A stretch of 18,359 nucleotides of DNA, from NCBI GenBank assembly GCA_002771075.1, contig PCXM01000031.1:18441-36799 (forward strand), in the 5' to 3' direction. A model generated the notes under the pieces. That model saw only the letters and a program-made list of their open reading frames with translations. It did not search any database and was not told the origin of the DNA. A program made the translations under genes and the position numbers. This document shows, piece after piece, positions 2,811 through 18,076 of this stretch. Each line of letters begins with the position of its first letter. The first letter of the stretch is position 1. This stretch comes from Candidatus Zambryskibacteria bacterium CG10_big_fil_rev_8_21_14_0_10_34_34. Lineage in GTDB: Bacteria > Patescibacteriota > Minisyncoccia > Phycocordibacterales > WO2-35-19.

Positions 2811-4079
2811 ATGAATTACAAAAAAAAGGTTTTGAAAAATGGTTTGAGGATAGTGGTTATTCCTATGAAAGATACTCTTTCTGTAACAGTGATGAGTTTA
2901 ATTGAAGCTGGATCAAAATATGAGACAAAAAAAATAAACGGACTCTCTCATTTTCTTGAACATATGTGTTTCAAGGGAACAAAAAAAAGACCAACAGCAA
3001 TGGATATTGCCAAAGAATTTGACGCTATGGGAGCTCAAAACAATGCATTTACTTCGCAAGAGTTTACAGGATATTGGGCTAAGGCACATTCAAAACATAA
3101 AGAAAAAATGATTGAGATCATTGCTGATATGTATCTTAATCCTACTTTTCCAGTTGATGATTTAGAAAGAGAAAAAGGGGTTATTATAGAAGAGTTAAAT
3201 ATGTATGAAGATTTGCCTATGAGAAGTGTTCATGATGTTTGGAATGAACTTTTGTATGGAGATCAACCTGCTGGTTGGCCTATAATTGGAACTATAAATA
3301 ATATTCGTGCGTTTACTCGTGATCATTTTGTAAATTATAGAAAAGATCTCTACAAGTCTGAATCTACTATAATTTTGGTTGCTGGTAATGTTGAAGCCAA
3401 AGATATATTTAAAAAAGTTCAAAAATATTTTGAGAAAATTCCTACCGGAAAGAAAAAGAAAAAATTGAAGGTAAAAGAAAAACAAACTAAACCAGCTATA
3501 AAAATAAAATACAAAGATACTGATCAAACACATCTAATAATTGGAGTTAGAGCTTTTGATACTAATGATAAAAACACGCCAGCTCTGAAAGTTCTTTCTG
3601 CTGTATTAGGTGGAGGAATGAGTTCTCGATTATTTCAAAAAATGAGAGATGAACTTGGTATTTGTTATTATGTAAAGTCTTATGTTGATCAATTAACAGA
3701 TCATGGAGTTTTGATGGTTACGGCTGGAGTTGATTCAAAAAGAGTTGACGAAGGTATCCTTGGTATTCTTGGAGAATTAAAAAAAATAAGAGATAACAAA
3801 ATAAATGGGGCTGAATTGAGAAAAGCCAAAGATTTTCTAATTGGTAATATGTATTTAGGGCTTGAATCTTCAGATTCTTTAACCGAGTTTTATGGTATGC
3901 AAGAAATTTTAAGTGATAAAATACAAACCCCAAAAGATCAGGAAAAAGAAATTGAAAAAGTGACTTCTCAAGATATTGCTAGAGTGGCAAAATCTTTAAT
4001 AAAAAATGATTGTCTTAATATGGCAATTGTCGGTAAATACAAAGACTCTAAAAAGTTTCAGAAAATTTTAAAGGTCTAA
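2811..4079 (+). CDS. M16-family (insulinase-like) zinc peptidase
   Basis: 422 residues from the ATG at 2811; a TTG four codons upstream is also in frame but a poorer start. The inverted zinc motif HFLEH is at residues 47-51, and the third ligand Glu lies about 76 residues later in GVIIEELNMYED (E127). These are the active-site features of the catalytic half of M16 peptidases. The second half (GGGMSSRLFQKMRDELGICY) is the domain with the conserved R/Y segment. The size fits a single bacterial PqqL/YmxG-like subunit that works as a dimer, degrading or processing peptides. No signal peptide or membrane segment is apparent, so it is probably cytoplasmic. It is the only + strand gene in the left two-thirds. 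Its stop overlaps the tail of the uracil-DNA glycosylase gene by 4 nt. Confidence 0.93.
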   Translation: MNYKKKVLKNGLRIVVIPMKDTLSVTVMSLIEAGSKYETKKINGLSHFLEHMCFKGTKKRPTAMDIAKEFDAMGAQNNAFTSQEFTGYWAKAHSKHKEKMIEIIADMYLNPTFPVDDLEREKGVIIEELNMYEDLPMRSVHDVWNELLYGDQPAGWPIIGTINNIRAFTRDHFVNYRKDLYKSESTIILVAGNVEAKDIFKKVQKYFEKIPTGKKKKKLKVKEKQTKPAIKIKYKDTDQTHLIIGVRAFDTNDKNTPALKVLSAVLGGGMSSRLFQKMRDELGICYYVKSYVDQLTDHGVLMVTAGVDSKRVDEGILGILGELKKIRDNKINGAELRKAKDFLIGNMYLGLESSDSLTEFYGMQEILSDKIQTPKDQEKEIEKVTSQDIARVAKSLIKNDCLNMAIVGKYKDSKKFQKILKV

Positions 4080-15825: not shown

Positions 15826-15857
15826 AAGCCGTAGCATCTTTGCAGACGGTACGGCTT
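15826..15857 (-). terminator. Terminator of the peptide gene
   Basis: 8-bp stem AAGCCGTA/TACGGCTT with a 16-nt loop that can itself fold (GCA/TGC). On the minus strand it is followed by TCACTTTTT. It starts 9 nt after the peptide gene's stop. Confidence 0.65.
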
Positions 15858-15865
15858 AGGCGAGA

Positions 15866-16060
15866 CTACTTGTGGTGTGAATCCTGCCACTGGTCCCAAT
15901 CCTTCCAGTTGTCCCAGTTACCCTTCCATGCGGTAGGGGTTGGGCTTCCTTTGGGATTGTCACCAATGGTGGGAAAGCGGGATACGCGAGCGATTGAACC
16001 GAGCAGAGTCTCTGATTTCTGCGTCGGCTTAGTCACAACGGGAGCATTCGTTACCGGCAT
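15866..16060 (-). CDS. RiPP precursor peptide with tandem W-x-x triplets (putative triceptide-type)
   Basis: 64 residues from the ATG at 16060, chosen because GGAGGTGAT sits 4 nt upstream. An ATG 5 codons earlier (16075) is also in frame, but that ribosome site would then be inside the gene. The first 40 or so residues look like a leader (TNAPVVTKPTQKSETLLGSI, then ARVSRFPTIGDN). A Gly/Pro-rich hinge follows (PKGSPTPTA), then a core WKGN-WDN-WKD-WDQ-WQD-SHHK. Five Trp are spaced 4,3,3,3, and four consecutive triplets have N, D or Q at the third position. This fits the aromatic-x-x motif that radical SAM/SPASM enzymes crosslink into three-residue cyclophanes. There are no Cys. GC is 54% by hand count against about 30-38% around it. 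Strong promoter and terminator of its own. The radical SAM gene lies 0.9 kb away on the same strand. Product chemistry is inferred. Confidence 0.75.
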   Translation of the reverse strand: MPVTNAPVVTKPTQKSETLLGSIARVSRFPTIGDNPKGSPTPTAWKGNWDNWKDWDQWQDSHHK

Positions 16061-16064
16061 CTTT

Positions 16065-16073
16065 ATCACCTCC
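16065..16073 (-). promoter_or_regulatory. Strong Shine-Dalgarno of the peptide gene
   Basis: GGAGGTGAT on the minus strand, 4 nt from the ATG at 16060, a near-full match to the 16S rRNA 3' end. It decides between two in-frame ATGs. Confidence 0.8.
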
Positions 16074-16085
16074 ATTCTGCTCAGA

Positions 16086-16114
16086 ATCTTAAATCATTGT
16101 CTTTATTTTGTCAA
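16086..16114 (-). promoter_or_regulatory. Promoter of the peptide gene
   Basis: Minus strand: perfect TTGACA (16109-16114), 17-bp spacer, TAAGAT (16086-16091). The expected start is near 16079, giving a leader of about 20 nt with the Shine-Dalgarno. It overlaps the divergent promoter at 16097-16126. Confidence 0.7.
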
Positions 16115-16126
16115 TCATTGTATAAT
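16097..16126 (+). promoter_or_regulatory. Divergent promoter of the TraB/Tiki-like gene
   Basis: TTGTCT (16097-16102), 18-bp spacer, perfect TATAAT (16121-16126). It is interleaved with the peptide promoter, so the two may be expressed in competition or together. Confidence 0.55.
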
Positions 16127-16154
16127 AAAAAGTATTCAAAATAATTAAGCCAAT

Positions 16155-16931
16155 ATGCTACTTTTAACTCAAGAAGAATACAGCAAATTAAAACATAAAA
16201 CTCCCTATGTTTATAAAATTCAAAACAAAAAACAATTTTTGTATTATTTTGGCGAAAGACATTCTTTTGATCCAAAAAATAAACAATGGATACAGGTTAA
16301 GGAGTTTTGGTTTGATTTTATTAAAAACACAGAAAATTCCAAAAGGATTGCATTTGTTGAAGCAGGCAACCCTTCTTTGAAAGAAACCGAAGAAAAGTCT
16401 ATTCTTGAAGCCGGTGGTACAGGACTTATTGTGTTTCTTTCTTCTCAATCAAAAACAGAAGTTTATTGTCCAGAACCCAATAGAACTTATGAAATGATGG
16501 AACTAGAAAAACAATTCTCAAAAGAAGAAATTGAATACTATTATTTTGCTCGTATTGTGTATCAATGGAGTAAAATACCAGATCCAAAACCAAAATTTGA
16601 AGAATACATAATCAGATTTCTTGAAAGAGACAAGAAGATGAGTGACTGGAATGACTTCGATTTTTCTTTTGAAAATTTAAAAATAGTTCACAAAAAACTT
16701 TTTGATACCGAATTTGATTTGGAAGATTTGAATTTTTTTAAGGATTTAGTCACACCAGTTGAATTAAAAACTGTTATAAACAGAGTCGCTAGAGCTAGTG
16801 GCGAAATAAGAAATGAATATATTATTAAAGAAATACAGAAATATTGGAATAACGGGTACTCAATATTTATAGAATATGGTGCAAGTCATGCGGTGATACA
16901 AGAATCATTACTTAAAGAGATATTGAAATAA
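16155..16931 (+). CDS. TraB/PrgY-Tiki-EreA superfamily-like protein (putative metal-dependent hydrolase)
   Basis: 258 residues, no signal peptide or membrane segment. The start has YYFGERHSFDP (G-E-x-H, H36), then IAFVEAG (E69). Near the end come a conserved-looking Arg (RNEYIIKEI) and IFIEYGASHAVIQ (G-x-x-H, H245). A GExH near the N-terminus and a GxxH near the C-terminus mark the superfamily that includes TraB/PrgY, ChaN, erythromycin esterase and the Tiki proteases. PrgY lowers activity of a peptide pheromone and Tiki cleaves peptides, so a role in processing or inactivating the neighbouring peptide is an attractive inference. It sits between precursor and maturase on the opposite strand. 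It has the low GC of the host genes (about 30%), so it may instead be a resident gene. No Shine-Dalgarno before the ATG. Confidence 0.6.
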   Translation: MLLLTQEEYSKLKHKTPYVYKIQNKKQFLYYFGERHSFDPKNKQWIQVKEFWFDFIKNTENSKRIAFVEAGNPSLKETEEKSILEAGGTGLIVFLSSQSKTEVYCPEPNRTYEMMELEKQFSKEEIEYYYFARIVYQWSKIPDPKPKFEEYIIRFLERDKKMSDWNDFDFSFENLKIVHKKLFDTEFDLEDLNFFKDLVTPVELKTVINRVARASGEIRNEYIIKEIQKYWNNGYSIFIEYGASHAVIQESLLKEILK

Positions 16932-16934
16932 AAA

Positions 16935-16961
16935 ACCGCGTCATTTTTGAGATGACGCGGT
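16935..16961 (-). terminator. Terminator overlapping the end of the radical SAM gene
   Basis: Perfect 10-bp GC-rich stem (16935-16944 with 16952-16961) with a 7-nt loop, followed on the minus strand by T6. The stop codon and last seven codons of the radical SAM gene lie inside the hairpin. On the + strand no U-run follows, so it serves the minus strand only. Confidence 0.85.
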
Positions 16962-18008
16962 CATGGAGCAAATCCGCTCAAAAACTTTCTTCCTTACTTC
17001 GCAATGACGATACTTGCCGGTTTTGTTATGCATAGCAGTGCAACCGTTATTGCAGAATGGTCGCCATTTGCAGGAAATGCAGTCTGGGTGAACATTTCTG
17101 ACTTTAAGACGAAACTTCTCAGCTTTGTCGCCAGTCATGATTTCGAGTAAACTTTTTTCCCGCAAATCTCCAAGCAGGTGCTGATCGTCAAAGCAGATGC
17201 GATCGCAAGGATAAACCAGTCCGTTGTAATCAACACAGAAGTAATTTCCGCATGAGCCGCTGAAGTTGCAACTACTCGGTCTTCTTCCGAGAAATGCAGC
17301 AACGAATTGATCTATTTCTTCAATTTCCAATGAAGGATCGTTGGTAGACATCCAAAAATCAATCAGTTCGTCGTAAGCTTGTAGGAGATTGTTCTCCGAT
17401 ATGGTGATGGTCGGATCATCTACCACATTGATAAGACACGAACTCTCATCAACAAAGTTTATTTTCCAACTTCTCAAACCAAGTGTATGATAGAAAAACT
17501 CTTGACTCTCTCTGATAAAGCCCAACCCCTTAGAGGTTATGGTTTGTATCAAACCAAACTTTAAACCTAGTTTTTGCATGAGTTCAAGGTTTTTCACAAC
17601 TTTGTCAAAAGTGGAATGACCTTGACGGTCGGGACGCTGCAAATCTTGAATTCTCTTGGTTCCGTCCAAACTCACACCAATGCCAAAATTATTGTCTTTG
17701 AAAAAGGATACCCACCGTTCATCTAAAAACGTCGCGTTTGTCTGCAGACGGTTTTCAAATTGAACATCTGGATACAATTTTTGTTCTGCAATAGCCAGTT
17801 TGTAAAAATCCAAACCAGCCAAGAGGGGTTCTCCGCCGTGCCAAATAGCGGTTACTTTTGCTATTCCCACCTCACCCATGTCTTTGATGAGTTTCTTGAG
17901 AAGACCATGTTCCATTTTCTGAAAACTAGCCTGGTCAAGATGAGAGTAAAAACAATAAACGCAACGCAAATTGCAGAAGTTCCCGACGGACTTGATTATC
18001 GCTGTCAC
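16941..18008 (-). CDS. Radical SAM/SPASM peptide maturase
   Basis: 355 residues. The start is GTG at 18008, with AAAGGAG 6 nt upstream. The radical SAM cluster motif CNLRCVYC is at C12, C16, C19. WHGGEPLL (56-63) is the SAM-binding GGE motif, and VSLDG lies at 112-116. The SPASM domain supplies auxiliary-cluster ligands: C247, C253, C258 and C268 around YFCVDYNGLVYPCD, then C310-x2-C-x5-C-x3-C323 and C336, a complete SPASM set. The LQTNATFLDERWVSFF and GIGVSLDG stretches resemble peptide-modifying enzymes of the GrrM/FxsB kind that form cyclophanes; anaerobic sulfatase maturases are the main alternative, but no sulfatase is here. The likely substrate is the W-x-x peptide at 15866-16060. GC is well above the host genes, and the strong ribosome site is unlike most of the neighbours. 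No RiPP recognition domain is evident. Confidence 0.88.
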   Translation of the reverse strand: MTAIIKSVGNFCNLRCVYCFYSHLDQASFQKMEHGLLKKLIKDMGEVGIAKVTAIWHGGEPLLAGLDFYKLAIAEQKLYPDVQFENRLQTNATFLDERWVSFFKDNNFGIGVSLDGTKRIQDLQRPDRQGHSTFDKVVKNLELMQKLGLKFGLIQTITSKGLGFIRESQEFFYHTLGLRSWKINFVDESSCLINVVDDPTITISENNLLQAYDELIDFWMSTNDPSLEIEEIDQFVAAFLGRRPSSCNFSGSCGNYFCVDYNGLVYPCDRICFDDQHLLGDLREKSLLEIMTGDKAEKFRLKVRNVHPDCISCKWRPFCNNGCTAMHNKTGKYRHCEVRKKVFERICSMTASSQK

Positions 18009-18014
18009 TCTGTT

Positions 18015-18021
18015 CTCCTTT
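18015..18021 (-). promoter_or_regulatory. Shine-Dalgarno of the radical SAM gene
   Basis: AAAGGAG on the minus strand, 6 nt before the GTG start. Together with the reading frame it fixes GTG as the start. A small AGGTC/GACCT hairpin lies just upstream in the leader. Confidence 0.75.
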
Positions 18022-18047
18022 CTAGGTCAAAGAACAGACCTGTAACT

Positions 18048-18076
18048 ATTTAACCACAAGATTATTACTATTGCAA
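18048..18076 (-). promoter_or_regulatory. Candidate promoter of the radical SAM gene
   Basis: Minus strand: TTGCAA (18071-18076), 17-bp spacer, TTAAAT (18048-18053). Both boxes match at four of six positions. Confidence 0.4.

Follow-up and report, generated by a model that had tools for sequence, protein, structure and literature searches.

A precursor peptide gene and a radical SAM gene at one locus

We analysed an 18,359-nucleotide stretch of DNA (G000:C26:18441-36799, hereafter the window) from a 440-kb assembly of 45 contigs with a completeness of 85.6%, focusing on a gene for a short precursor peptide and a gene for a radical S-adenosylmethionine (SAM) enzyme with a SPASM domain, the maturase. 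Both genes lie on the same strand, 880 bases apart, with a Tiki/TraB-like gene on the opposite strand between them (Table 1). A first-pass annotation had described a 64-residue Cys-free peptide ending in WDN WKD WDQ WQD and, 0.9 kb away, a complete maturase with C12, C16, C19 and the SPASM cysteines; this pair is present as described, but the intervening gene had gone unmentioned. Our results indicate that the peptide is very probably the substrate of the maturase and that the locus probably encodes a triceptide-like ribosomally synthesised and post-translationally modified peptide (RiPP), the product of which carries three-residue cyclophanes.

The precursor open reading frame (ORF) spans positions 15866-16075 of the minus strand, where the ATG at 16060 is the likelier start and gives 64 residues without Cys. 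Its core is made up of the triplets W49-D-N, W52-K-D, W55-D-Q and W58-Q-D. The spacing W..W..W..W was found in one of the 154 window ORFs of at least 30 residues, the precursor itself, and among 4,452 ORFs from loci L048-L127, which overlap in part and total 506 kb, only in L078, a copy of the same locus. At the DNA level, a pattern of four spaced TGG codons was uninformative, matching 153 of 285 genomes, many in Gly-rich frames.

A protein database search with the precursor returned four matches, one being the precursor and the others (P0002-P0004) sharing 62–81% identity with it. Across these four aligned peptides, core residues 49-60 were invariant at 12 of 12 positions, as were G21-S-I-A-R-V-S27 and F29-P30 in the putative leader, and P40 was the sole invariant position of residues 31-48. 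On alignment, this is the pattern of a leader, a linker and a core. Triplet conservation, which the annotation had named as a check, was thus borne out in all three homologues, but the W-K-G-N unit that it had noted before the triplets, although present in the window peptide, was not conserved, with its Trp absent from P0003 and P0004. NCBIfam models searched against ten precursors gave no family match, and single-sequence scans of genome contigs with the maturase and with the peptide found no relatives.

Table 1 Features of the peptide, Tiki/TraB-like and maturase genes in the window
Feature	Position	Strand	Basis
Precursor peptide gene, 64 residues	15866..16060	-	ORF with Shine-Dalgarno; homologues P0002-P0004
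Leader motif T-L-L-G-S-I-A-R-V-S-R-F-P, residues 18-30	15971..16009	-	Alignment; coordinates computed from start codon
Core, four back-to-back W-x-[N/D/Q] triplets, residues 49-60	15881..15916	-	Alignment; coordinates computed
Shine-Dalgarno GGAGGTGAT of precursor, directly upstream of start	16065..16073	-	Read from sequence
Promoter-like site of precursor, TTGACA-17-TAAGAT	16086..16114	-	10/12 matches; consensus match only
Promoter-like site of Tiki/TraB-like gene	16097..16126	+	10/12 matches; consensus match only
Tiki/TraB/EreA/ChaN-like protein, 258 residues	16155..16931	+	GxxH 33-36, E69, R219, GxxH 242-245; homologue alignment
Terminator-like hairpin 3' of maturase gene, between convergent maturase and Tiki/TraB-like ends	16934..16962	-	Consensus match
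Radical SAM/SPASM peptide maturase, 355 residues, GTG start	16941..18008	-	ORF, Pfam, alignment, tree, structure model
SPASM cysteines C247-C336	17001..17270	-	Alignment; coordinates computed
CX3CX2C motif C12/C16/C19 of radical SAM barrel	17952..17975	-	Alignment; coordinates computed

The maturase and the precursor are probably transcribed separately here, because a terminator-like hairpin (16962-16934) follows the maturase gene and the precursor has a promoter-like site of its own; both are consensus matches only, in a region with 14 promoter-like sites (7.2 expected) and two terminator-like sites (1.4 expected).

Pairing of maturases with aromatic-triplet peptides

We assessed the pairing in related loci using profile searches of 383 genomes of the class, which gave 29 maturase loci in 26 genomes (E ≤ 1e-60), and of a phylum sample of 379 genomes, which gave 14 loci in 13 genomes (E ≤ 1e-40). 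Nine of the latter were not among the former, so that 38 loci were tested, the window included. The pattern scored was a small ORF on the same strand as the maturase and no more than 1.2 kb from it, with three aromatic-x-[DNKQ] triplets near the ORF end, and was set after examples had been seen; control genes (n = 51) encoded at least 200 residues and lay at least 2.4 kb from the maturase in the same loci. We found an aromatic-triplet ORF near 20 of 38 maturases and near 1 of 51 control genes (Fisher P = 1.3 × 10−8). An earlier neighbourhood test with a looser pattern and a shorter flank gave 21 of 38 loci vs. 6 of 73 controls; we tightened the pattern and extended the flank, since the first flank did not reach the peptide of the window.

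In a maximum-likelihood tree of 37 maturases, representing all of the 38 loci but L059 and L120, together with L013 as an outlier, the window maturase fell in a clade of six with support of 100/100, drawn from six genera (genomes G000, G596, G697, G386, G494 and G675). Every one of the six loci has a gene for a peptide whose leader contains G-[AS]-x-x-R and which bears W/F-x-[N/D] triplets; in the five loci besides the window, this gene follows the maturase at a distance of 2–37 bases. The third residue of the 27 W/F triplets in these cores was N or D in 10 cases each, G in 2, and Q, K, E, S and P in one each. Two members of the sister group (n = 5), L049 and L071, have Tyr-rich cores, and Tyr replaces Trp in the aromatic-x-[N/D] motifs of L049, L067, L071 and L110. 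The neighbourhood survey that the annotation had called for therefore upholds the pairing throughout the clade, but only in part of the wider family. The few organism-labelled homologues were Patescibacteria, Wolfebacteria and Kaiserbacteria records, and the best reading of these loci is a triplet-peptide system patchily distributed across probable Patescibacteria.

A second maturase clade of five (L057, L112, L115, L116 and L118) has cores with WD[KD]GHWANR and the leader motif [IV]P[KQ]VL. Homologous ORFs, presumably pyrophosphatase-like, precede the maturase in two genomes (L049:2717-3136 and L068:2407-2718).

Family and fold of the maturase

The maturase scored 65.9 bits against Radical_SAM and 39.5 bits against SPASM in Pfam, and was the sole Radical_SAM match in the genome. 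We considered the best 25 of 64 matching NCBIfam models, the others ranking lower, and none of these 25 reached its curated cut-off. sulfatase_rSAM (242.4 of 349.45 bits) ranked first and DynA (211.2 of 450) second, and the same two models topped the tally for 16 aligned maturase homologues. The AlphaFold model (mean predicted local distance difference test score 85.7) was closest in Foldseek to anSMEcpe, an anaerobic sulfatase-maturating enzyme (anSME), with a template modelling (TM) score of 0.83 and 28% identity, followed by ChlB (TM 0.81, 22%), and a profile search of solved structures also placed anSME (261 bits) above ChlB (110 bits). None of the 274 plasmid records matched by the maturase reached 60% identity; the best ten were at 28–30%, and the annotated ones among them were sulfatase maturases or an arylsulfatase regulator.

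anSME is thus the nearest enzyme by both sequence profile and fold, and the residue aligned with its D277, which we take to be the catalytic base, is also Asp (D269 was invariant in one alignment and Glu in the L003 row of another). These features would be expected if the enzyme were an anaerobic sulfatase maturase that generates formylglycine and the peptide were unrelated. We rejected this identity as extremely improbable: the sulfatase_rSAM score falls under its cut-off of 349 bits, triplet peptides accompany the maturase in 6 of 6 clade members, and the sulfatase domain PF00884, found in 10 of 14 control genomes, had no match in this genome, where incompleteness means that a gene may be missed.

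The enzyme could instead modify the Trp-triplet peptide differently, through darobactin/dynobactin-type ether or C-N crosslinks, or through ringless oxidation, hydroxylation or epimerisation. SPASM enzymes catalyse many reactions, DynA is the second-ranked model at 211 bits, and the maturases of dynobactin and darobactin (DynA and DarE) act on Trp-containing cores. However, DynA falls well under the 450 bits needed, the cores here are arranged differently, without the W-x-W spacing at which the darobactin ether forms, and the recurring aromatic-x-[N/D] motif, with Tyr for Trp in four loci, resembles known three-residue cyclophanes. We therefore regard a different reaction as unlikely and favour three-residue cyclophanes. 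The Trp-cyclophane interpretation of the annotation is supported in part, by the conserved triplets, the pairing in the clade and the rank of ChlB, which the title of its paper calls a multiple cyclophane synthase, among the nearest structures after anSME, but the known maturase families are missed by cut-off. The crosslinks, and likewise the rigid rod and the action on host or competitors that the annotation envisaged, stay hypothetical.

Predicted cyclophane chemistry

The known triceptide enzymes (XncB, OscB/GrrM, MscB/FxsB, YxdB, YhhB and HaaB) are likewise SPASM radical SAM enzymes acting with short precursors that contain aromatic-x-[N/D]. As given in excerpts of a review, W-x-[N/D] and Y-x-D are known substrates of OscB and YxdB, respectively, with OscB linking C7(Trp) to Cβ(Asn/Asp) and YxdB linking C3(Tyr) to Cβ(Asp). 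In the pathway that we infer, from reaction and regiochemistry through to export and function, the maturase would read the leader T-L-x-G-S-I-A-R, and 5'-deoxyadenosyl radical chemistry would remove the beta hydrogen of the third residue in each W-x-[N/D/Q] triplet, whose beta carbon would then bond to the indole ring of that triplet's Trp, two positions earlier. The product would contain up to four adjacent three-residue cyclophanes, each with a loss of 2 H, and the chances that all four triplets are closed into rings appear about even. The Tiki/TraB-like protein may be what takes off the leader, and export would also belong to the pathway; the product might conceivably act in antagonism, signalling or metal binding.

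This chemistry would match that of known triceptides, although the cyclophanes here are predicted and the system differs in its maturase branch, which lies below the model cut-offs, its apparent host group (Patescibacteria), its back-to-back triplets, and the Tiki/TraB-like neighbour found in part of the family. We found no prior account of aromatic-triplet peptides of Patescibacteria, or the Candidate Phyla Radiation (CPR), in the portions covered of the triceptide, RiPP and CPR literature (including PMC11002830, PMC9062424, PMC12636437, PMC10885120 and PMC8939145); a mention in the 2022 triceptide landscape in the Journal of the American Chemical Society is possible. Peptide natural products of these ultra-small bacteria are little explored, and a cassette of two genes, in which the leader is conserved and the core clear, lends itself to direct testing in a heterologous host. 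If the prediction is true, triceptide chemistry would be widened to back-to-back rings and a handle gained on the products of such cells.

Counter-evidence and possible decay of the system

Several observations weigh against a working triceptide-like system. The models for cyclophane maturases all scored below cut-off (GrrM/OscB 106.7 of 310 bits, FxsB 85.1 of 370, XyeB 78.4 of 450, YhhB 103.2 of 445 and AmcB 111.5 of 425), so the known triceptide subfamilies were ruled out as the maturase's identity, and the XncB, GrrM/OscB and FxsB types cited in the first-pass annotation do not fit by curated models, the nearest models being sulfatase_rSAM and DynA, themselves below cut-off. The triplet pattern was missed by 18 of 38 maturase loci, and on visual inspection two of the 20 matches (L119 and L121) look spurious. 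Of the loci without the pattern, L112 and L050 have a peptide with two triplets and L056, L060 and L125 have looser W-x-x repeats; L127, L052 and L058 have no same-strand ORF of 30–130 residues within 500 bases of the maturase. The window precursor is itself 880 bases from its maturase, behind an opposite-strand gene. In two of the six clade members the assembled maturase gene is broken, owing to either assembly error or decay: in L108 a TAA interrupts it, and in L068 the CX3CX2C region is missing. A search of nine genomes of the family (eight in the genus, own genome counted) found no close maturase homologue in the eight other genomes, with a weak match in G002 (E = 2.2e-6).

Cofactor supply and export pose a further difficulty. 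A SPASM radical SAM enzyme should need several iron-sulfur (Fe-S) clusters, and the genome had no matches over threshold to the SUFBD core, the bacterial SAM synthetase C-terminal domain or ABC_membrane, with ISC not searched. With the models tried, therefore, cofactor supply and export are unexplained. Of 54 genomes surveyed, 52 lacked the SUFBD core, and the same held for 24 of the 26 that carry a maturase; the puzzle is therefore a general one, and the source genome no exception.

Some of these findings would follow if the pairing were decaying or accidental here, with maturase and precursor acquired together and no longer a working system. Consistent with this, a close maturase homologue occurs only in the source genome among the nine family genomes, the cofactor and exporter genes were not found, the maturases of L108 and L068 are broken, and guanine plus cytosine content differs among the precursor (54%; 57% at third codon positions without Trp and Met), the maturase (42%), the Tiki/TraB-like gene (29%) and the window (35%), a mixed composition that is consistent with acquisition from elsewhere. 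Yet both genes are intact in the window, with ribosome-binding sites, the cluster cysteines and an invariant core, and the general lack of SUF argues against a decay specific to this genome. We consider decay or accident very unlikely, and a functioning pair remains our preferred interpretation.

The Tiki/TraB-like neighbour

We take the Tiki/TraB superfamily motif to be a GxxH near the N terminus, an acidic residue and a C-terminal GxxH, and this arrangement was found in the 258-residue protein: G33, H36, G242 and H245 were invariant and E69 nearly so in 26 aligned sequences of the 69 homologues found. The protein itself had no match in Pfam (PF01963 included) or NCBIfam, and of its distant relatives P0190 (15.5 bits) and P0193 (12.4 bits) scored below the PF01963 cut-off of 26.8 bits and P0157 and P0189 had no score. 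Comparison of its sequence with solved structures gave nothing credible (best E = 0.49), and Foldseek gave no significant match, ChaN and EreC appearing only on a second look.

Tiki-like homologues adjoin homologues of the radical SAM enzyme in L049, L067, L068 and L071, and a fragment of one in L063. Co-occurrence at the genome level was weak (4 genomes shared among 18 and 26 of 383, P = 0.027; P = 0.09 without the source genome), so the argument for a link with the maturase rests on adjacency. No member of the family was found in viral contigs. A link with the maturase would make the protein a candidate leader peptidase. Makarova et al. (2022, PMC8939145), in the parts covered, already reported SPASM and Tiki/TraB genes near peptide-modifying genes in graspetide loci of CPR bacteria and suggested leader cleavage, but those loci are centred on ATP-grasp ligases, no aromatic triplets are described there, and the authors did not confidently identify the precursors of branch-2 loci except in two sets. 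By word search, the terms Tiki and TraB are absent from the main text of a review of RiPP proteases.

Within a single contig (L071:2702-9705), a Tiki-like gene neighbours an ATP-grasp ligase of the MvdD type; about 3 kb further along come a maturase, a peptide with Y-x-D and another Tiki-like gene. In L075:3017-4435, a short ORF is clustered with an ATP-grasp ligase, a peptide of 40 residues (3440-3562, identified by eye) and a Tiki-like gene.

More broadly, Patescibacteria may maintain an extensive, as yet unnamed family of peptides with several cyclophanes each (four Trp rings in a row in the present case), produced by a SPASM maturase branch of their own; a cytoplasmic Tiki/TraB-like protein would serve as a leader peptidase shared by cyclophane and graspetide RiPPs and the cells would depend on partners for SAM and perhaps Fe-S clusters. 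This broader picture is tentative, and we think it doubtful as a whole.

Genomic setting and related genes on viral contigs

The source is a very small and probably symbiotic bacterium, likely of the CPR type. Other window genes, named by family, are the housekeeping genes alaS, mnmA, YceG/mltG, leuS and ychF, and a PemK/MazF-like toxin gene (48 bits in Pfam) is located at 2223-2606.

Two contigs from IMG/VR carried related genes. In L151:2841-4098 (IMGVR_UViG_3300037044_000078), a 45-residue peptide overlaps the start of a radical SAM/SPASM gene and reads as six back-to-back Tyr triplets (YPE YGE YSE YLD YHD YSD); phage holin, amidase/endolysin and resolvase-type integrase genes follow, and this is a phage-borne triplet cassette. 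In L149:113-4150, a radical SAM homologue (30% identity) is followed by a Trp/Tyr-rich peptide ORF, and the same stretch also carries a gene for a phage capsid protein.

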